26,172 nt of DNA from a virus, in the IMG/VR virus record IMGVR_UViG_3300022074_000330, positions 1-26,172 of that record. One strand, written 5' to 3'. Numbering within the stretch: the first letter of the stretch is position 1; every line of letters begins with the position of its first letter. The notes under the pieces were generated by a model. That model was not told where the DNA came from. It saw nothing but the letters and a program-made list of their open reading frames with translations, and ran no database searches. Of the stretch, positions 1,212 to 22,100 are shown in pieces. Position numbers and translations under genes: made by a program.

Positions 1212-1928
1212 ATGCCTTTACCTAAGATTAGTACACCGTCTTATGAATTAACTCTACCTTCAAATGGGAAAAAAATAAAATATAGACCATTTTTAGTGAG
1301 AGAAGAAAAAATTCTTATCATGGCACTTGAAACTGAAGATCCAAAACAGATCACAGATGCAGTTGTTCAAATACTTGATTCTTGTATTCTTACAAGAGGA
1401 GTAAAAATTCAAAAACTTGCGACCTTTGACATTGAATATCTTTTCTTAAATATTAGATCAAAATCAGTTGGTGAATCAATTACAGTAAATGTGACTTGCC
1501 CAGACGATGAAAAAACATCAGTGGAGATGTCAATTGATTTAGAGACAATCAAAGTTAAGAAAAATAAATCTCATCAAGACACTATTAAACTTGATGATAA
1601 TTTATCTTTAAAATTAAAATATCCATCAATGGATCAATTTATTGAAAATAATTTTGAAGTTGGTAATGAAACAATTGGAAATACTATGAAAGTAATCACA
1701 TCATGTATTGATATGATTTACAATGAGGAAGAAAGTTGGAATGCTTCTGATTCAACTCAAAAAGAATTAGAAGGTTTTGTTGATCAATTGAATACGAAAC
1801 AATTTAAAACAATTGAATCATTTTTTGATACAATGCCTAAACTTTCACATAAGATAACAGTGAAAAATCCTAATACGGGAGTAGAATCTGATGTCGTATT
1901 GGAGGGACTGGCAGCTTTTTTCAACTAG
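1212..1928 (+). CDS. 26: Baseplate hub assembly protein, T4 gp26-like
   Basis: This 238-residue soluble protein has no signal or membrane segment. It resembles the T4 gp26/T4_baseplate family: an N-terminal beta strand region (YELTLPSNGKKIKYRPFLVREEK), then helices, a central CPDD-containing strand region, and a C-terminal helical part ending in GLAAFFN. T4 gp26 is a small assembly factor for the central hub and is not thought to be a major tail component. The gene is led by its own late promoter. The last codons contain a perfect in-frame -1 slippery heptamer (1916-1922), so a fraction of ribosomes may make a longer gp26-gp51 fusion of about 298 residues. That is the arrangement known for tail-assembly chaperones of lambda and many other long-tailed phages. 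Confidence 0.75.
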   Translation: MPLPKISTPSYELTLPSNGKKIKYRPFLVREEKILIMALETEDPKQITDAVVQILDSCILTRGVKIQKLATFDIEYLFLNIRSKSVGESITVNVTCPDDEKTSVEMSIDLETIKVKKNKSHQDTIKLDDNLSLKLKYPSMDQFIENNFEVGNETIGNTMKVITSCIDMIYNEEESWNASDSTQKELEGFVDQLNTKQFKTIESFFDTMPKLSHKITVKNPNTGVESDVVLEGLAAFFN

Positions 1929-1941
1929 GTATGGCTCATAC
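1916..1941 (+). promoter_or_regulatory. Putative programmed -1 frameshift signal between gp26 and gp51
   Basis: The heptamer T TTT TTC (1916-1922) is in the correct X XXY YYZ phase of the gp26 frame (GCT TTT TTC AAC TAG). A -1 slip gives CAA CTA GGT ATG, entering the gp51 frame exactly at its ATG (1931). Six bases after the heptamer a perfect hairpin GTATG-gct-CATAC (1929-1941) begins, which is the usual spacing for a stimulatory structure. The stem also covers the gp51 ATG, and the sequence before that ATG has no good ribosome site. The signal is seen directly in the sequence; its use in translation is inferred. Confidence 0.65.
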
Positions 1942-2107
1942 GAATCTGGAGTCATACTATAAAGTTAACTTTGCCCTGATTCAGCATCATAAATACTCAT
2001 TGACTGAGATTGAGAACATGATTCCTTGGGAAAGGGAGATATATGTTTCTTTACTACAACAACATATTGAGGAAGAAAACTTAAAGGCACAACAACGTGG
2101 AACCTGA
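1931..2107 (+). CDS. 51: Small baseplate hub assembly protein, gp51-like / chaperone frameshift extension
   Basis: This is a 58-residue helical, acidic protein. It carries the motif SLTEIENMIPWEREIYVSLL, followed by a charged helix (QQHIEEENLKAQQRGT). In marine T4-like phages a short protein of this type follows gp26 and is annotated gp51 (from memory, not searched); T4 gp51 itself is much longer. The 'P-(W/F)-ER-(E/D)-(I/L)-Y' pattern also recalls the C-terminal 'T' part of tail-assembly chaperones. It lies 2 bases after the gp26 stop in the -1 frame and is probably made mainly as a gp26 fusion through the signal at 1916-1941. It overlaps the next gene by 11 bases. A CATAAATA at 1988-1995 lies inside it and might be a weak late promoter for the next gene. 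Confidence 0.65.
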   Translation: MAHTNLESYYKVNFALIQHHKYSLTEIENMIPWEREIYVSLLQQHIEEENLKAQQRGT

Positions 2108-3422
2108 TACAGTAAAGACACCTAAAATTAATAAGAGCACCTTTAAGATTGGTTCAGGTGATCTTGGGATGAGAGTCGCCAATAATGAAAAAAAGATAAC
2201 AACATTAAAAAATATATTCAAGACACAAAGAATTGAAATAGGAGAAAAGATAACACCAAAAATTAATGTTTTAGAAGAATCATTAATAAGAACAAATGAA
2301 GTTTTAGGAAATATAGCGTTACAACTCAACAATGATTTTAGTAGGAGATTACAGGCAGAAAAAGATTTACTTCAAAAAGAACAACAAAATAAACTTGGTA
2401 GTAAGAGAGAAGATAAAGAAGAAAGATTAGAAGCAAAAAAAGTTTCTAAATTTGTAAAATCAACAGCAAGCACAGTAACTGCTCCTTTCAAAAATATATT
2501 TCAAAAAATATTAGATTTTGGAAAATTATTTCTAGCAGGTGTAGGTGTGAATGCTGCTCTTGCTTGGTTATCTAATCCTCAAAATCTTTTAAAATTTCAA
2601 GAAACACTTAAGAAAATAACTGACAGACCAATCATTAGTTTAGTTGCGTTTGGTGGAGCTGCATTTATTATTGCAGAGGTTATTGGAAAAGTAATTGGTG
2701 GGTTTAGAAAAGTTATATTTACTTTGTTAAATCCAATGACTTATGTTGATTTATTTACAGGTAAAACATTCAAAAACTTTTTACCTAAAATGCAAAAGTT
2801 AATACAAAAAGCAGGTAGAAATACCATGAAGGGTAAAGTATTAAAAGAAGTAGCAGAAGTTGGTATAAAAAAAGGTGGTCCTAAAATACTAGGTGCCTTA
2901 CCTTTAATTGGTAATTTTATTGATATCGGTGCTGCGATCTATAGATTTAGTAAGGGAGATATAGTTGGTGGATTTTTATCATTAGGTAGTGCGATACCTG
3001 TTCTTGGTTGGGGTGTTGCTGCAGTTGACATTGCAAGAGAGTTTGGTGCATTTGAAGGTTCTATATTAGAAAAACAGAAAAAACCAGACAAAGAACTTGC
3101 TATGGGTGGAACTTTTGAAAAAGGTGAAACGATTGTAATTGATGAACAAACACCTAATGCAAAAAGATTTACGAGTATGCCATTTAGTGGTAAAGTTATG
3201 ACTGCTCAACAAATGAAATCATTAAGAAGAGGGAAAAGGAGAAGAAGAACAACTATAGAAGAATTAAATTTACCAGACAAATATGTAGGTAATGATCAAA
3301 CAATTCGTCAAATAGAACCTGGTGGAGATTCATTAGTTGGTGCAGCAGAGCATTTTAGTTCTATGAATCCGAGTGATCCATATCCTTCAGAATTTGCATT
3401 CTTCATGGAGGACATTGTATAA
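2097..3422 (+). CDS. Virion structural protein, candidate tape measure
   Basis: This 441-residue protein begins with GTG, overlapping gp51. Residues 30-120 are charged and coiled-coil-like. Then come hydrophobic Gly/Ala-rich stretches: one around FGKLFLAGVGVNAALAWL, a second around LVAFGGAAFIIAEVIGKVIG, and a third of about 50 residues with paired Gly-Pro turns (LPLIGNFIDIGAAIY then GGFLSLGSAIPVLGWGVAA). After that comes a basic patch (RRGKRRRRTT) and an acidic tail. No enzyme motif is seen. Tail tape-measure proteins typically combine coiled coil and membrane-active hydrophobic segments and are encoded just after the tail chaperone pair. Position and composition therefore fit a tape measure, the role of T4 gp29, although I see no direct gp29 similarity. 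Confidence 0.5.
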   Translation: MEPDTVKTPKINKSTFKIGSGDLGMRVANNEKKITTLKNIFKTQRIEIGEKITPKINVLEESLIRTNEVLGNIALQLNNDFSRRLQAEKDLLQKEQQNKLGSKREDKEERLEAKKVSKFVKSTASTVTAPFKNIFQKILDFGKLFLAGVGVNAALAWLSNPQNLLKFQETLKKITDRPIISLVAFGGAAFIIAEVIGKVIGGFRKVIFTLLNPMTYVDLFTGKTFKNFLPKMQKLIQKAGRNTMKGKVLKEVAEVGIKKGGPKILGALPLIGNFIDIGAAIYRFSKGDIVGGFLSLGSAIPVLGWGVAAVDIAREFGAFEGSILEKQKKPDKELAMGGTFEKGETIVIDEQTPNAKRFTSMPFSGKVMTAQQMKSLRRGKRRRRTTIEELNLPDKYVGNDQTIRQIEPGGDSLVGAAEHFSSMNPSDPYPSEFAFFMEDIV

Positions 3423-4297
3423 TGGCAGTTGAAGATAGAGCAAAAGAATTAAATTCATTAGCAGAAAAAATTCAAGGTTCATTTACCAATTTTAGATCAC
3501 AATTTAAATCTATTTCTAATAAAAGAAAAAGAATAAGAAGAAATATTACGGAGAGAAAAAAAAGAGATGCAAAATTAAAATCTTCATCATCATCTTTTGG
3601 AAAATCAATTGGAAATATAAAATCAAAAGTATTATCAGGACCGAGTTCAATATTGGGTAAAGTTCTTAACTTTGCTTCACTCTTATTATTTGGAGTCGCA
3701 ATAAATGCCATTGCAGGAGTCAATCGTAAAGTTGATGATGACTCTAAGATGATGAAAGAAAATTCTGAAAATACTGGTAATTTTATTACTGGTATGGTTG
3801 CAGGTATACAAAACTTTATTGCAGGTTTTGGATTGATGGAGAAAAAAGTAAATAATACTTTTGATGATGTAGATAACAGTATTAAAAATGCAGAAAAAGA
3901 ACTTCAAGGATTTAAAAGTGATACTGACAAACTAGATAATTTTAATTTATCAAATATCTTAACTGACAATACACAAGAAGATAATGATAGAGAATCAGAG
4001 GAGAAATCGATTGATTCAAGATTTAAGACATCTAGTGATAAATCAAATTTAAAAAGAAATGCGGATAAAACTGATAAAATCTTAAAAGATAAAGATATTG
4101 AGTTAGTACAAACAGAGGGTTTAACACCAGAGGATAAGAAAAAAAATACGTTTACAAAGAGACTTTTTAAAAAACTTGATGAAAATGAACTAAATATTGA
4201 TAACTTGAAACTTGGTATTGAGTCAGAGGATATAGATGGTGATGGGGTAGATGAAAAAATTATTATTATACGACAAAGGGAGATAGTTAACAAATAA
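3422..4297 (+). CDS. Structural protein, shortened relative of the preceding gene
   Basis: This 291-residue protein is joined to the preceding gene by a TAATG stop/start overlap. It has a strongly basic N-terminal coil (KSISNKRKRIRRNITERKKR), a Ser/Lys stretch, one hydrophobic segment (LGKVLNFASLLLFGVAINAI) and a long, very acidic and polar C-terminal half. The hydrophobic segment has the same arrangement as FQKILDFGKLFLAGVGVNAA in the upstream protein, suggesting the two share an ancestor or an interaction mode. A DxDGDG-type acidic loop (residues near 270) could bind calcium. Its place between the tape-measure candidate and the hub suggests a hub or tail-lumen component. No function is recognised. 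Confidence 0.5.
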   Translation: MAVEDRAKELNSLAEKIQGSFTNFRSQFKSISNKRKRIRRNITERKKRDAKLKSSSSSFGKSIGNIKSKVLSGPSSILGKVLNFASLLLFGVAINAIAGVNRKVDDDSKMMKENSENTGNFITGMVAGIQNFIAGFGLMEKKVNNTFDDVDNSIKNAEKELQGFKSDTDKLDNFNLSNILTDNTQEDNDRESEEKSIDSRFKTSSDKSNLKRNADKTDKILKDKDIELVQTEGLTPEDKKKNTFTKRLFKKLDENELNIDNLKLGIESEDIDGDGVDEKIIIIRQREIVNK

Positions 4298-5616
4298 TGT
4301 CATTAGCAGGACCATCAAATTATCAAGTTCTTCGTATGGAGAAATCTGACGAAAATAATCCACAATCTATTGGTGTTGAAGGAAAAACTATTTCTTTTAA
4401 TTACTATGAGAGCATCTATTCACCAATGATAACTGCAAATGCAACCATTGTTGATACAGGTGATTCTGTTGTTGATAAAAGAGGTAATTTAGCAACGATA
4501 AAAGATGGATTTCCTCTTGAACATGACGGAACAGAAACTTTTAAATTTAAAATATCAAACGAAAATGGAACAATTACATCTTTAAAACCATTAGTTGTTA
4601 CTGCTTCACCAGTTACTTTAGATCAATCTACTAGACAAGTTTTAACATTAGAATTAAAGTCAAAATTTTCTATTGAGAGTAGTAGTAATCCAAGATTGAG
4701 TTCTTATGGTATAGGAACTGTAGATGAGTCAGTGAAAAAAATATTAAAAGAAAATAAATTACCCTTCAGAAATGAAAACATCGAAAAATCAAGCACAGTA
4801 GATAAGATAGAAGGAAAAAATGAAACACCAATTGATTTAATATTTAATTTAAGTCGAAAATGTAAACCTGTAAAAGGTGCACCTGGCTTCTTCTTTTATG
4901 AAACTCAAGAAGGATTTAATTTTAGATCTATTGAAGGTTTGATTGAACAAGGTATGAATGAATATAAGGAAAATCAAAGTGTTCGTGATGTTCGCACTTA
5001 CAAATATTTTAATAATCAGAGACAAGATTTAGGATCAAATGAAGATGATTATAATATGGTAAAAATGCCAATTTTAAAAAGAGATCATAATTTATTTAAT
5101 GCTTTGAAGGCAGGAGTGTATAATGTTCGTATACAAACAAAAAATTTACTAACTGGTGAATTTAAAGATAATGTAGTAAATTTACTTGATAAAGATTCTA
5201 GTTATCTTGGAAGTAAACCTAAAAAAATAATCGATCAAAATGAAAATAAATTAGAAAAGTATTGTAAAACTTATAGTTATGTTCTTGCACCAGGTAATGT
5301 TGATGAAGGTGTAAGTGATAAGATAACAAATAGTCCTGCAGAATATGAACCTCAGGCTATGATGAGATATAGTATGTTACACTCTCAAGTGCTTGAAATC
5401 CAAGTTCCTTGTAATATATTACTGATGGCAGGTCAAGTGATAAAATTAGAAATGGAAAATGTAACTGGTGGTAATAAAATATTACAGAGAGAAAATCAAC
5501 ATCGAAGTGGTTTTTATCTTATTCTTCATTTAAGTCATCACTTTGATCCTAAACATTCATATACATCAATGACTTTAGCCCGTGATACCTACGGATTATA
5601 TACAAGTAGCAAATAA
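4297..5616 (+). CDS. Baseplate hub protein, gp27/gpD-like
   Basis: This 439-residue protein has the layout of contractile-tail hub proteins: an N-terminal barrel-like beta region (1-125), a helical insertion (residues 140-190), the motif FFFYETQEGFNFRSI (198-212), and a second barrel-like region toward the C terminus (ILLMAGQVIKLEME, HHFDPKHSYTSMTLARD). The motif 'F.Y.T..GF.F.S...L' is typical of the gp27/VgrG-N-terminal family, which forms the trimeric hub linking tube and spike. The gene is coupled on both sides by TAATG overlaps, and the downstream partner has the gp5-like OB fold that gp27 binds in T4. The family call is reasonably sure; orthology to T4 gp27 is by context. Confidence 0.65.
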   Translation: MSLAGPSNYQVLRMEKSDENNPQSIGVEGKTISFNYYESIYSPMITANATIVDTGDSVVDKRGNLATIKDGFPLEHDGTETFKFKISNENGTITSLKPLVVTASPVTLDQSTRQVLTLELKSKFSIESSSNPRLSSYGIGTVDESVKKILKENKLPFRNENIEKSSTVDKIEGKNETPIDLIFNLSRKCKPVKGAPGFFFYETQEGFNFRSIEGLIEQGMNEYKENQSVRDVRTYKYFNNQRQDLGSNEDDYNMVKMPILKRDHNLFNALKAGVYNVRIQTKNLLTGEFKDNVVNLLDKDSSYLGSKPKKIIDQNENKLEKYCKTYSYVLAPGNVDEGVSDKITNSPAEYEPQAMMRYSMLHSQVLEIQVPCNILLMAGQVIKLEMENVTGGNKILQRENQHRSGFYLILHLSHHFDPKHSYTSMTLARDTYGLYTSSK

Positions 5617-6413
5617 TGGATAGAAAAAAACCAAAAATATCAAAAGTTAATGATCGATCTCAGTATGGTAAAACACCACTTGAATCGTGGACAGGAACTG
5701 TTGTTTCATATGACGCACAAAAAGATCAACTTGAAGGTGGTTGGGGTTGGAGATATAAAGTTAGAATTATGGGAGAGAATACACAATCTGATACTATTAC
5801 ATCTGAAAAAATAGATTATGCATACTGTTTACTACCTACAACTGCAGGTTCTGGTGGTGCTTATAAGTTAAGATCCGTTAGAATTAGTCAGGGTGATTAT
5901 GTATTCGGTGTGAAAGGTGGTGGAGGTCCAACAATTATCATGGGTGTTTTTCCTCGAACTTCTAAGCAAGTGCCTGGTTTTGGTAATTTTGAAAATCTAT
6001 CAGGTTTTTATGGTTCTCTAAAAAATACTGGTATTATAAGTGGTGAGTTTAATGAACAGATAGGACCTGCAACACCAGGTGGTTCTGGTCTTGATCCAAA
6101 AGAATGGACTAAAGCAACTGCTAATGATCCATCAGAAAAGATAAAAGAAATAATTCCTGAAGCAGAAAAAGGAGATGAGATACCAATCGAGCAAACAGAA
6201 AAATATCAACCTGCAAGTGGTAAATTAATTGACCCTCTTGAGTGGGAACCAGAAACTTCTTTAAATACACCAACCATAGAAGCTATAAAAGATTCTTATG
6301 AGAAGGGAGAATTGAATATAGAAATTTATAAACAAGCACTTAGGCAAGCAACAAAGCAAGGTCTAGATGGGTATGAAAAAAATGTGGTTGATGAAATAAT
6401 TAAAGGATTATGA
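5616..6413 (+). CDS. 5: Baseplate hub gp5-like OB-fold protein without lysozyme domain
   Basis: Residues about 24-115 form an OB-fold like the gp5/VgrG N-terminal domain: W-TG-VVSYD, a WGWRYKVRI strand, and the closing GDYVFGVKGGGGPTIIMGVF. That domain connects the gp27-type hub to the spike. The remaining 140 residues are Pro/Glu-rich and then helical (EAIKDSYEKGELNIEIYKQALRQ). T4 gp5 is 575 residues, with a lysozyme domain and a beta-helical needle. Here neither is present: no lysozyme-type E-D-T catalytic pattern is visible, and beta-helical spike sequence instead occurs in a separate gene at 8363. It follows the hub gene through a TAATG overlap. Confidence 0.7.
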   Translation: MDRKKPKISKVNDRSQYGKTPLESWTGTVVSYDAQKDQLEGGWGWRYKVRIMGENTQSDTITSEKIDYAYCLLPTTAGSGGAYKLRSVRISQGDYVFGVKGGGGPTIIMGVFPRTSKQVPGFGNFENLSGFYGSLKNTGIISGEFNEQIGPATPGGSGLDPKEWTKATANDPSEKIKEIIPEAEKGDEIPIEQTEKYQPASGKLIDPLEWEPETSLNTPTIEAIKDSYEKGELNIEIYKQALRQATKQGLDGYEKNVVDEIIKGL

Positions 6414-6464: not shown

Positions 6465-8360
6465 ATGACTAGTATACCATTAGCAGTTAGTTTTGATTGT
6501 ACTCCTCCTGAAAACGCATCAAAAATTCAAAAATCCTTAACTAAATTTTTAAATGGTGCATCAGGAAAGTTAGGTGGCGCTTTTAATATGGTTTCGGGTC
6601 TTGATACTGCAGTGAGTGAAATATCTGCATCCATGACTAGTCTCACAACAAGTATGAGTTCTCTTCTTGAGGATAAATTATCTGAGTTTGTTAGTACAGG
6701 TTTGATGGCAGCAAAGAATTATATTTTTAATACAATCACAAATCCTTTAGCTGCTATCGCACAAAATAATGCATTTTTAACAAGTGCATTTAAACCAATT
6801 GGAAGTCTTTTTGGTGCTTTTGGATGCCTTGGATCTACAATTCAAAAGGCATTAAAGAATACAATCAAAAATTTACTTACCAATATGATAAGTAAAGGAT
6901 TAATTAATCCCCTTGAGTGTGCAGTTGAAGATTTTATTGGTACTATTACTAATAAGATAAGTAGTTTGATGGATGGAATCATTGGTCCTTTAATAGAACC
7001 AATTAATAAGTTATTCAGTATTATTGGAAGTTCCTTTGGATCGATCAAAGATGTTCTTGGAAAGGGTCTAAACATAGTTAATAAATTGAATGGTTTATTA
7101 AATTGTAAAGACAGTGGTGCTAAATGTCATGAGGTTGAGAGTTGGACTTTGAATAAAGGTTCATCAAAACCAGATAGTACGAAGAAAAAACAAAACTTTA
7201 TAACAAAATCTATTGATGCAGGAACAAAAAAAATTGATAATATTAATGATAAACTTGATGATGCGATTGGTAATATTGATGTTCCTAGAATAGATCCAAT
7301 TACTGGAGAGGAAATGGAGGTTACATGTAATGGAGGTAATATTTTAGATTGTGGATTGCCAAGAGTTGAGTTCTTTGGTGGTGGAGGAGAAGGTGCTGCA
7401 GGAGATGTAATACTTGGAAACTTTATTGAAGAACTTGATAAATCAATATCAGAAACAGAAGTTGTTGTAGATGGTGAGACACAACCTGTTGGTAGCATAT
7501 TGGAAGACGTTAAAACAACTGGAGGTATTTTGGGTGTGGATATAACATATCCTGGTGAAGGATACACAAGTGAACCCCTTATCTCATTTGTAGATAATTG
7601 TGATCAAGGTTATGGTGCCTATGGTCGTGCAATAATTGATAAAGATCCAAATTCACCTACTTTTGGACAATTAACTGGTGTTCTTATGTTATCTGAGGGT
7701 GAAAACTACCCAACAGGAGAACAAACTGATGTATTTGTAGATGAAATTGTGGTTGAAAAAGGTGGTTCTGGTTATAAATTAAATGATAAAATAGATGATT
7801 TTGAAATTTGTGGTGTAGATGAAAATGGTTCGATTACAAAAGTATGTACAAATGATAAAGCATATCGTACATTACCATCTTTAGGAGTCAAAAGTTATAC
7901 TGGAAGTGGTGCAATATTAACACCAATTATGACTCGTAAACGTAGACAGTCAGAAGTTATTCAAGTAATTGATTGTATTACACCAAGAAATAATATAGTT
8001 GGATATGTAAATGGAAAAGAGTATAATGGTCCTTTCCATGTGATGCCTAATGGACAAAAGATGACAGGAGCAGTTCATACTGAGAGTGATGATATAATTT
8101 ATAATACACCCCAAGAGAGTTTGAGAGATGGATCACCACAACGTATTAGTTCTACGGAGGTTAATTTTAGATCGATTCAACAATTAGTTCAAGAGAGTGA
8201 ACAAACACAAACAATAGAGAGCACAGATACTTACACTGATCCAGTAGATGATGCGATGGATATGGATACAGACATAGATCCAACACCACCAAGTACACCA
8301 CCAAGTACACCACCAAGTACACCACCAAGTAGTGGTGGAGGTGGAGGATACGGTTATTAA
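6465..8360 (+). CDS. Large virion structural protein with Thr-Pro-Pro-Ser/Gly tail
   Basis: This 631-residue protein is unassigned by name. Residues 1-200 are helical and hydrophobic with repeated Ser/Ile heptads (LTTSMSSLLEDKLSEFVST, NPLECAVEDFIGTITNKISS). Residues about 200-290 are a Lys/Asp-rich coil. From about 345 there are beta segments with a 'G-x-GY' signature (VDITYPGEGYTSEPLISF; IVVEKGGSGYKLND). Cys occurs at scattered positions. The C terminus is four TPPS units followed by GGGGGYGY, a low-complexity tether. Its position between the OB-fold hub gene and the spike-like gene suggests a central baseplate or spike-associated part. The Gly-Tyr motif recurs in the 1783-residue protein at 10399, pointing to a shared fibre-type domain. 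Confidence 0.55.
   Translation: MTSIPLAVSFDCTPPENASKIQKSLTKFLNGASGKLGGAFNMVSGLDTAVSEISASMTSLTTSMSSLLEDKLSEFVSTGLMAAKNYIFNTITNPLAAIAQNNAFLTSAFKPIGSLFGAFGCLGSTIQKALKNTIKNLLTNMISKGLINPLECAVEDFIGTITNKISSLMDGIIGPLIEPINKLFSIIGSSFGSIKDVLGKGLNIVNKLNGLLNCKDSGAKCHEVESWTLNKGSSKPDSTKKKQNFITKSIDAGTKKIDNINDKLDDAIGNIDVPRIDPITGEEMEVTCNGGNILDCGLPRVEFFGGGGEGAAGDVILGNFIEELDKSISETEVVVDGETQPVGSILEDVKTTGGILGVDITYPGEGYTSEPLISFVDNCDQGYGAYGRAIIDKDPNSPTFGQLTGVLMLSEGENYPTGEQTDVFVDEIVVEKGGSGYKLNDKIDDFEICGVDENGSITKVCTNDKAYRTLPSLGVKSYTGSGAILTPIMTRKRRQSEVIQVIDCITPRNNIVGYVNGKEYNGPFHVMPNGQKMTGAVHTESDDIIYNTPQESLRDGSPQRISSTEVNFRSIQQLVQESEQTQTIESTDTYTDPVDDAMDMDTDIDPTPPSTPPSTPPSTPPSSGGGGGYGY
8283..8330 (+). repeat. Four exact 12-bp tandem repeats (TPPS codons)
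   Basis: The unit ACACCACCAAGT occurs four times without change at 8283, 8295, 8307 and 8319. It encodes (TPPS)4 just before a run of glycines. Perfect identity at the DNA level suggests recent slippage expansion, so copy number may vary between related phages. Confidence 0.9.
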
Positions 8361-17675: not shown

Positions 17676-19139
17676 ATGAAAAAAATTGTTATTGTTGGTG
17701 CTGGCACTGCTGGATTGGCAGCTGCGGCTATGATGAAAAGTTATTGGAAAGACAAAGTTGATATAACTTTGATCTATGATAAGAGTCGAGGAAATATATC
17801 AGTTGGAGAAAGCACTACCCCAATCTTTAGATTGTTGTTAGGACATCTTGGTGTGTCAACAAAAGATTTAATAAATGATATTGGTGGTAAAGCAACTATA
17901 AAACTTGGTATTAAGTTTAAAAATTGGATACCAAATACAGAGTATTTTCATGGTTTTGCAGAGATAGAGAGAGGAATTGATACAAATACAAGTGCAATAT
18001 ATTCCATACCAGCAGGAGAATTTAATGGTGGTATGAATTATAATAATGCAAAAACTACCATACCTAACAAACCATTTGAAGATTATGATTATGCGATGCA
18101 CATTGATACAAAAGTATTTTGTGAATACATCACAGATAAATTAAAAGATAAAATTAATTTTGTTGATGGAGTTGTTAATCGAGTGCGAGTAAATCCTGAG
18201 TGTAATAAAATTGAACATATAGAATGTTCAACTGGAATATATGAAGCAGATTTATTTGTTGATGCATCTGGTTTTAATGCAGTATTATTTAAACATTTGA
18301 ATCCTATATGGAATGACACATCTGATGTACTTCCAATAGATCGTGCAATACCACAACAAGTTCCTCATGATTTTAAAGAGACACCCTCATTTACAACTTG
18401 TGAAGCAACTAATAATGGTTGGATATGGCAGATACCAATAGGAGATAGATTTGGTACAGGATACTTGTATTCATCTAAATTTACTACAGATGAAGAAGCA
18501 CAAGAACAATATGATAAATGGCTACAAGAAAAGTTTAACGTAGGATTAGAAACTGATCGAATTATAAGATATAAGCCTGGCTACTACGAGGATTATTGGA
18601 TTGGTAATTGTCTTGCAGTTGGACTGTCAAGTGGATTTATTGAACCATTAGAAGCAACTGGTATTCAGATTATTATACAACAGATACAAGAGTTTATGAT
18701 TGTTAATTCTACATTTAAAAATTTAGAGTACAATCGCACAATCTTAAACAAAGGCAATCGTACACTTTATAAAGATATTATAGATTTTGTTGCACTACAC
18801 TATTGTACGAATCGAACTGACTCTGCATTTTGGAATTATATGACATATAATAAAATTGATTGGGTACGAGATTTTGAAGAGAAATGTAAAGAAGAGTTTT
18901 TAGACGCAAGAACTTGTTATAAAGAAAAAACTTTTTGGGGACTTGATAGTTTTATACAAGTTTGTTATGGACTTAAAATGTTTAATCGAGAATCAATTAA
19001 AAACTTCTTATTGTCTAAAATTGATGGGATCGAAATTTTTAGAACAGCAGAAGCAGAACACCAAGCACTAGAGAGTGAGAAGAAAAAGATAAAACAAATT
19101 GCTCATAAAAAAGTTTTAGACCACATTATGAATAAATAA
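17676..19139 (+). CDS. Flavin-dependent tryptophan-halogenase-like enzyme
   Basis: This 487-residue protein belongs to the FAD-dependent (tryptophan) halogenase family, which uses reduced flavin, O2 and halide to halogenate an aromatic substrate. It has the FAD motif GxGxxG at G8-G10-G13 (IVGAGTAG), VGESTTP (43-49), the putative catalytic Lys K76 in ATIKLGIKF, the halogenase signature WxWxIP at 249-254 (GWIWQIPIGD), a second FAD region (DASGF near 196-200), and PLEATG with E326 at the position of the conserved catalytic Glu. All key residues are present and the length is near the usual 500-540, so it looks functional. No partner flavin reductase is in the window. It begins 3 bases after the fibre gene with no promoter, so it is probably expressed late with the fibres. 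The substrate is unknown. Confidence 0.85.
   Translation: MKKIVIVGAGTAGLAAAAMMKSYWKDKVDITLIYDKSRGNISVGESTTPIFRLLLGHLGVSTKDLINDIGGKATIKLGIKFKNWIPNTEYFHGFAEIERGIDTNTSAIYSIPAGEFNGGMNYNNAKTTIPNKPFEDYDYAMHIDTKVFCEYITDKLKDKINFVDGVVNRVRVNPECNKIEHIECSTGIYEADLFVDASGFNAVLFKHLNPIWNDTSDVLPIDRAIPQQVPHDFKETPSFTTCEATNNGWIWQIPIGDRFGTGYLYSSKFTTDEEAQEQYDKWLQEKFNVGLETDRIIRYKPGYYEDYWIGNCLAVGLSSGFIEPLEATGIQIIIQQIQEFMIVNSTFKNLEYNRTILNKGNRTLYKDIIDFVALHYCTNRTDSAFWNYMTYNKIDWVRDFEEKCKEEFLDARTCYKEKTFWGLDSFIQVCYGLKMFNRESIKNFLLSKIDGIEIFRTAEAEHQALESEKKKIKQIAHKKVLDHIMNK
19131..19138 (+). promoter_or_regulatory. Late promoter-like AATAAATA
   Basis: AATAAATA overlaps the halogenase stop, 16 bases before the ATG at 19154. 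It is the weakest match of the set, but the spacing is right. The next gene has a plausible ribosome site (AAAAGGT). Confidence 0.4.
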
Positions 19140-21378: not shown

Positions 21379-21401
21379 GATAAAAAGTTTTATTGTATGA
21401 T

Positions 21402-22100
21402 ATGGCAGAACATTTGCTATTTCCTACTCTGATCACTCAGAGTAAACGAGATGTGAGTGAAAAAGAAAAAATAGATTGGTTTGATTCGTATCTAGAAAAT
21501 AGTAACGAAAATGGTGAATCTATGGATTATCTTGGATTTGTCTCAATGCACCACGACCCAAGATTTGAAATGGTTTTTTATGATATTGCAAATACAGTTA
21601 AAGAACATCTTGAGTCTCTTGGTATAGACTCTACTACAATTTGTGTAAATATCACAAAATCATGGTTTAATGTTAATACTAATGAAGCGAGAAACCCCAT
21701 ACATGACCACGCAGAAAGTCATTACTCGATGACTTATTATCCCCATATTAAAAAGGGATTTGAAAAAAATTTAACTTTTTATGATAAAGCAGTGTCAAGA
21801 AATGAACCTTATATGTCTTTTTTGCAAAATAATGTTCACAAAATTAATCATCTTAACGCACGTTCAGTAGAGTTTACACCGCAGGTCGGAGATATATTTG
21901 TTTTTCCCTCTTGGATGGAGCATGAAACTGGCAATACTTCAGATAATTTAGATGTTTCTACAGAAGGTCAATCATTTTTTTCACATGAAGAATTAGAACA
22001 ATCACGCATTTGTGTTGGTTGTGATGCGATATTGACCAGAAAAAATACTTTTAAATATGATCACTTACTGACACCGATAACATTGTGGAAAAGATATTAA
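21402..22100 (+). CDS. Putative 2OG-Fe(II) oxygenase-like protein
   Basis: This 232-residue protein (numbered from the ATG at 21402) resembles the TIGR02466-type 2OG-Fe(II) oxygenases. Its motifs are KSWFNVNTNEARNPIHDHAES (84-106 region), with H101 and H103, a strand MTYYPHIKK, and GDIFVFPSWMEHETGNTS (163-180) with H174. R202 could be the 2-oxoglutarate ligand. C-terminal CVGCDAIL (204-211) has two Cys. The typical pattern is W-x-N...H-D-H...S...YYP...F-P-S...H. An in-frame ATG at 21393 is an alternative start. The gene has its own host-type promoter, unlike the oxygenase before it. The two are not close copies. The substrate is unknown. Confidence 0.65.
   Translation: MAEHLLFPTLITQSKRDVSEKEKIDWFDSYLENSNENGESMDYLGFVSMHHDPRFEMVFYDIANTVKEHLESLGIDSTTICVNITKSWFNVNTNEARNPIHDHAESHYSMTYYPHIKKGFEKNLTFYDKAVSRNEPYMSFLQNNVHKINHLNARSVEFTPQVGDIFVFPSWMEHETGNTSDNLDVSTEGQSFFSHEELEQSRICVGCDAILTRKNTFKYDHLLTPITLWKRY

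Follow-up and report, generated by a model that had tools for sequence, protein, structure and literature searches.

Genes 26 and 51 of a T4-like phage are predicted to form one tail-assembly chaperone gene with two products, joined by a -1 frameshift

Results

Genes 26 and 51 of a T4-like (Kyanoviridae-type) phage very probably constitute a single gene with two products, a tail-assembly chaperone (TAC) whose long form would be made by -1 frameshifting. The DNA analysed (the window) is an entire IMG/VR record of 26,172 bases, and the features of the gp26/gp51 region described below lie on its plus strand. The analysis establishes the sequence of the site, its phase, its conservation, the missing gp51 start codons, the homology to a fused T4 gp51 and a TAC-like predicted fold; we infer that slippage occurs, how often it would do so, what the stimulators would do to it, and that the proteins act as chaperones.

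A slippery heptamer at the end of gene 26

Gene 26 (positions 1212 to 1928; 238 amino acids; PF12322, E 1.5e-72) ends with the codons GCT TTT TTC AAC TAG (1914 to 1928). These codons agree with an earlier, sequence-only reading of this DNA in placing the heptamer T TTT TTC (1916 to 1922) in the gp26 phase, 3 nucleotides ahead of the TAG stop codon at 1926 to 1928. Read from 1916, the -1 frame encodes FFQLGMAHTNLESYYKVNFALIQHHKYSLTEIENMIPWEREIYVSLLQQHIEEENLKAQQRGT, a stretch of 63 codons that ends at a TGA stop codon (2105 to 2107). It is open throughout and contains all of gp51, including its ATG at 1931, such that slipped ribosomes would pass straight through this ATG, as that reading had supposed. 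The predicted fusion comprises 235 + 63 = 298 amino acids, the size it had estimated. The genes of the window hold four in-phase T6N sites in 8,059 codons, and only the one at 1916 to 1922 stands at the end of a gene with a long -1 open reading frame (ORF).

As conventionally annotated, the gp51 ORF extends from its ATG at 1931 to 2107. The same reading saw no clear ribosome site for this ATG, and we likewise find no Shine-Dalgarno (SD) sequence at a usable distance from it; the nearest SD-like stretch, GGAGGG (1901 to 1906), is 24 nucleotides away.

In the mechanism that we propose, the majority of ribosomes would terminate at the TAG codon to yield gp26, the short form (TAC-N), whereas a minority would slip back one base in tandem on U UUU UUC, enter the gp51 frame and yield the 298-residue gp26-gp51 fusion (TAC-NC). 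Both a short form and a frameshift-extended long form are predicted from this locus. If they act like gpG and gpGT of phage lambda, the tape measure would be coated by the short form, and the tail tube protein would be brought in by the C-terminal domain of the fusion. The heptamer would be the universal core of the signal, and in the clade of the window GGAGGG and a 9-bp stem downstream probably raise the slip rate. Because this stem would hide the gp51 AUG, little free gp51 is expected.

Conservation of the heptamer

Loci for gp26 were gathered from IMG/VR and from phage records, giving 236 distinct loci; queries of IMG/VR with the gp26 proteins of KVP40 and of Mendera contributed two loci each. 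Counts over 231 loci leave out T4, where gp26 and gp51 are two separate genes, the Ackermannvirus-like CRW-SP2, BX-1 and K483, and one record with a deletion in the run. This last, a Mendera-like phage record (L266, 2230 to 2330), has five Ts rather than six at the shift site; the deletion is probably a homopolymer sequencing error, since it disrupts the end of gp26 without joining it to the gp51 frame.

The sequence-only reading had proposed aligning many relatives to examine the heptamer and the frame relation, and both are kept in every case: all 231 loci carry six Ts in the identical codon phase followed by gp51 in the -1 frame. The seventh base is C in 189 loci, T in 21, A in 20 and G in one. 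The site is present even in Aeh1, KVP40, PhiW-14 and Mendera, whose proteins share 25-29% identity with that of the window.

Synonymous positions indicate that the heptamer is selected beyond its coding role. Among 95 non-redundant representatives (<80% identity), which were used for the codon and start-codon tests, TTT is preceded by T in every one, compared with 57 expected from codon usage, giving a log10 P of about -22 if the loci were independent; among the 19 representatives with <50% identity it is T in all, with 10.7 expected. As related sequences are not independent, such P values overstate the evidence. The codon ahead of the heptamer varies (GCT, AGT, TCT, GAT, AAT or GGT, for Ala, Ser, Asp, Asn or Gly), and its third base is always T. 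The first Phe codon (gp26 codon 236) is TTT in 95/95 representatives, relative to a TTT share of 0.68 elsewhere, and is the sole column of gp26 with 100% synonymous identity. The second residue is Leu in 21 loci, and these keep the six Ts. Because the preceding codon varies yet ends in T, and because the second residue may be Leu, it is the bases rather than the protein that are under selection.

The -1 frame and the start codons of gp51

A gp51-like -1 ORF of 58 to 71 codons follows the heptamer in all 203 closed T6[CT] cases, and the -1 frames of the T6[AG] loci are likewise open after it. Between the heptamer and gp51, the -1 frame keeps a conserved amino acid sequence (FFR[ILV][AT]L, with FFR[ILV]xL at the junction), upstream of any ATG. 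Within the first ten -1 codons, 43 of the 95 representatives lack an ATG, and 32 lack GTG and TTG as well. In existing annotations, gp51 is absent from Aeh1, LPCS28, ACG-2014d and 65.2, and begins at an internal start in syn9, Melnitz-1 and C48C1. Frameshifting is the simplest account of this protein-conserved stretch, of the missing starts and of the unannotated or internally started gp51 genes. The window and many relatives do keep a gp51 ATG, and some separate gp51 may be made from it.

Candidate stimulatory elements

The sequence-only reading had described a 5-bp GTATG/CATAC hairpin as the stimulator, with the gp51 ATG buried in its stem. The hairpin exists (1929 to 1933 with 1937 to 1941) and begins 6 nucleotides after the heptamer as stated, but another stem is more stable and covaries. 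Of 85 distinct relatives examined for its conservation, as that reading had suggested, 21 cannot form the 5-bp hairpin intact; it has no double-sided change, and we reject it. The minimum-energy structure from RNAfold instead pairs GUAUGGCUC (1929 to 1937) with GAGUCAUAC (1949 to 1957), forming 9 base pairs that also start 6 nucleotides after the heptamer. The ATG does lie inside a stable stem, although it is this longer one.

The 9-bp stem has a free energy of -12.6 kcal/mol, a z of -3.8 and no equally stable fold among 200 shuffles when computed on a 37-nucleotide stretch that was picked after the stem had been seen; a 75-nucleotide stretch gives the same stem with a z of only -1.07. Across 56 relatives, 96% of its cells are paired, with eight double-sided changes at three pairs, and its covariation score is matched by no shuffle and by no slid version. 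RNAalifold recovers the same pairing.

Programmed -1 shift sites can carry a structure 5 to 9 nucleotides after the heptamer, as the window does at 6 nucleotides, but not all known sites require one, and it is absent in some relatives. In S-PM2, a 14-bp hairpin unrelated to this stem occupies the corresponding position (z -5.1) and KVP40 has a weaker one, whereas the region downstream of the heptamer in syn9, Aeh1 and 65.2 folds no better than shuffles. A search for a stem common to the whole gp26/gp51 family found none. Because other lineages have unrelated, weaker or no structure, the 9-bp stem is best viewed as a lineage-specific addition in this clade and its neighbours.

Upstream, GGAGGG ends 9 nucleotides ahead of the heptamer. 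The conserved Glu codon within it is GAG in 29 of 33 representatives of the window's clade, compared with 27% elsewhere in gp26, and in 7 of 9 representatives with <50% identity. This codon bias is suggestive of selection on GGAGGG as a candidate upstream stimulator. A stimulatory SD element at a similar spacing, about 10 nucleotides upstream, occurs in E. coli dnaX, which likewise combines such an element with a slippery heptamer and a downstream stem. The dnaX heptamer differs (A AAA AAG) and the gene is unrelated; moreover, its stimulators have been shown experimentally, whereas those described here are predicted.

Homology and predicted fold

The relationship to T4 is evident from the phrog_150 profile. 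T4 gp51 (249 amino acids) covers it in full (positions 13 to 280), whereas T4 gp26 covers only 14 to 235. The gp26 and gp51 of the window split the same profile at 233/239, gp26 matching 5 to 233 and the -1 frame extension (TAC-C; 1916 to 2107, 63 codons plus stop) matching 239 to 280. This extension also matches phrog_634 (E 7.3e-29). Similarly, hhalign aligns the gp26 family with residues 6 to 201 of T4 gp51 (98.7%) and the gp51 family with its C-terminus (96.4%). T4 gp51 therefore combines a domain like gp26 with one like gp51, and its coverage of the profile implies that T4 encodes in two separate genes the products that this phage would obtain from one by slippage.

An AlphaFold2 model of gp26 has a pLDDT of 87. 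With VIA-align, residues 1 to 90 match three chains at Z 7-8: the HK97 tail-assembly chaperone 2ob9 (Z 7.9 over 84 residues, 3.9 Å), the prophage protein YqbN (3klu; Z 7.2) and the uncharacterised 3fgx. The chain 5ir0 follows at 4.9, and unrelated chains reach at most 2.2. The TAC fold is indicated by these Z values, whereas Foldseek statistics taken alone are weak (E about 1 for 2ob9). No solved chain resembling gp26 or T4 gp51 by sequence was found, which fits, and does not prove, the absence of these proteins from virions. Together, the homology and the TAC-like predicted fold support a chaperone function for gp26 and gp51. The proposal of the sequence-only reading that these genes encode tail chaperones is strengthened by their deep conservation, the missing starts, the fused T4 gp51 and this fold.

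Alternative explanations

Could gp51 instead be a separate gene, translated by ribosomes that terminate at TAG 1926 to 1928 and restart at ATG 1931? Overlapping stop and start codons automatically place a second gene in the -1 frame, and TAATG or TGATG overlaps are found in KVP40, PhiW-14, Mendera, S-CRM01 and EniLVp02 as well as in the heptamer-less CRW-SP2, BX-1 and K483; in the window, the ATG sits 2 nucleotides after the gp26 stop. We nevertheless regard such reinitiation as improbable, given that nearly half of the representatives have no ATG in the first ten -1 codons and a third have none of the three start codons, that the -1 frame is conserved as protein before the ATG, and that the ATG of the window lies within a stable stem. 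It would also leave the fixed run of six Ts unexplained.

The run itself invites two other readings. If RNA polymerase added a T within it, ordinary translation of the altered transcript would produce the fusion, and a T run followed by a stem, which can aid polymerase slippage, is what is present here. This possibility seems very unlikely to us: the run stops at exactly six Ts in 210 of the 231 loci, which is short for polymerase slippage, its seventh base varies without growth of the run in most lineages, and it always begins at a third codon position, a placement required for tandem slippage by ribosomes but not for slippage by polymerase. The heptamer might, finally, simply reflect a C-terminal Phe-Phe that is conserved in a genome rich in A and T. 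The C-terminus GLxxFF is indeed conserved as protein, and Phe favors TTT. A chance origin of this kind is refuted by the synonymous-site tests, in which both the invariant T of the preceding codon and the Leu-containing loci depart from it, and by retention of the run in Mendera and PhiW-14, where the codons nearby mostly have G or C at the third position; we give it almost no credence. Programmed -1 frameshifting on the heptamer is therefore the explanation that we favor.

Neighboring genes

Upstream of gp26 lies a gene for the tail tube protein (559 to 1173; PF23849, E 2.7e-21; phrog_45), and gp51 is followed by an ORF of 441 amino acids with hydrophobic segments (2097 to 3422). The sequence-only reading took this next gene for the tape measure. 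We detect no similarity between it and T4 gp29, and it is a tape measure candidate by position. It overlaps by one base with the ORF at 3422 to 4297 (291 amino acids). Other Kyanoviridae have a single ORF of >900 amino acids after gp51, so the candidate could be short, or divided between ORFs, in this phage.

Other genes of the window also deserve mention. The adjacent ORFs at 5616 to 6413 and 6465 to 8360 match successive stretches, positions 11 to 120 and 215 to 651 of 932, in the profile phrog_1922 (baseplate hub subunit and tail lysozyme), the pattern that a gp5 divided in two would give. A tryptophan-halogenase-type flavoprotein (17676 to 19139; PF04820, E 3e-84) directly follows tail fibre-like genes, and a 2OG-Fe(II) oxygenase (21393 to 22100; PF13759) is encoded near it; such genes are unusual in the structural region of a phage. 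DNA methyltransferases of the Dam type (PF05869; 22120 to 22683) and of the N6_N4_Mtase family (PF01555; 24534 to 25655) flank a UvsW-like helicase ORF.

Discussion

T4 gp51 is co-linear with the predicted gp26-gp51 fusion, and T4 gp26 with the gp26 of the window, whereas T4 encodes the two apart from each other, in divergent orientation and with no slippery site. Vladimirov et al. reportedly found frameshifting to be conserved in several T4-like groups, with T4 using genes 26 and 51 separately.

That work identified the chaperone genes of T4-like phages, with the T4 26/51 family as TAC-N and TAC-NC (Vladimirov, Gautam and Davidson, Virology 2022). A later text credits the same authors with poly-T shift signals in the TAC-N genes of these phages (PMC12846349), and another cites them for T4-like phages whose short and long forms are separate genes (PMC10885494). 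Since the chaperone genes were published in 2022, the principle is not new, contrary to what the sequence-only reading had thought possible for T4-like gp26 and gp51. What may be new are this clade's 9-bp stem and SD-like element. The present analysis adds breadth to the 2022 principle, corrects the stem and puts forward a candidate for an upstream stimulator.

The heptamer of lambda, G GGA AAG, is unlike the T TTT TTC described here. The order of 26 and 51 in this phage follows a T4-type tail. The likeness to lambda gpG/gpGT lies in a chaperone gene placed between tail tube and tape measure, the latter a candidate here, with a -1 slip near its 3′ end, predicted here, that gives a minor long form (PMC5009743). 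For the TAC locus of Vandenendeviridae and Andersonviridae, a poly-T -1 site ending TAC-N and an uninterrupted -1 frame have been argued from conservation, although these are other phage families and their motif is GTTTTT (PMC12846349).

Frameshifting may have been abandoned more than once. The gp26 genes of CRW-SP2, BX-1 and K483 lack the heptamer and are overlapped through TAATG by a gp51-like ORF; reinitiation may be their route to gp51, which would make them another case, after T4, of a lineage leaving frameshifting. For the marine clade, we propose a signal with three parts, namely the SD-like GGAGGG, U UUU UUC and the covarying 9-bp stem, which also hides the gp51 AUG; other lineages would have replaced or lost the stem. 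For this scenario, belief and doubt are evenly balanced. If true, the family would offer a natural series in which to follow the retuning of a chaperone ratio and the passage of T4 from frameshifting to a pair of separate genes.

Many deposited genomes lack gp51 or carry it in truncated form because it has no start codon, and we advise that annotation join gp26 and gp51 through a record of the slippage. The reading given here would explain two poorly understood 'baseplate hub' genes of T4 as encoding tail-assembly chaperones, and would do so for an ocean virus group that is very common.
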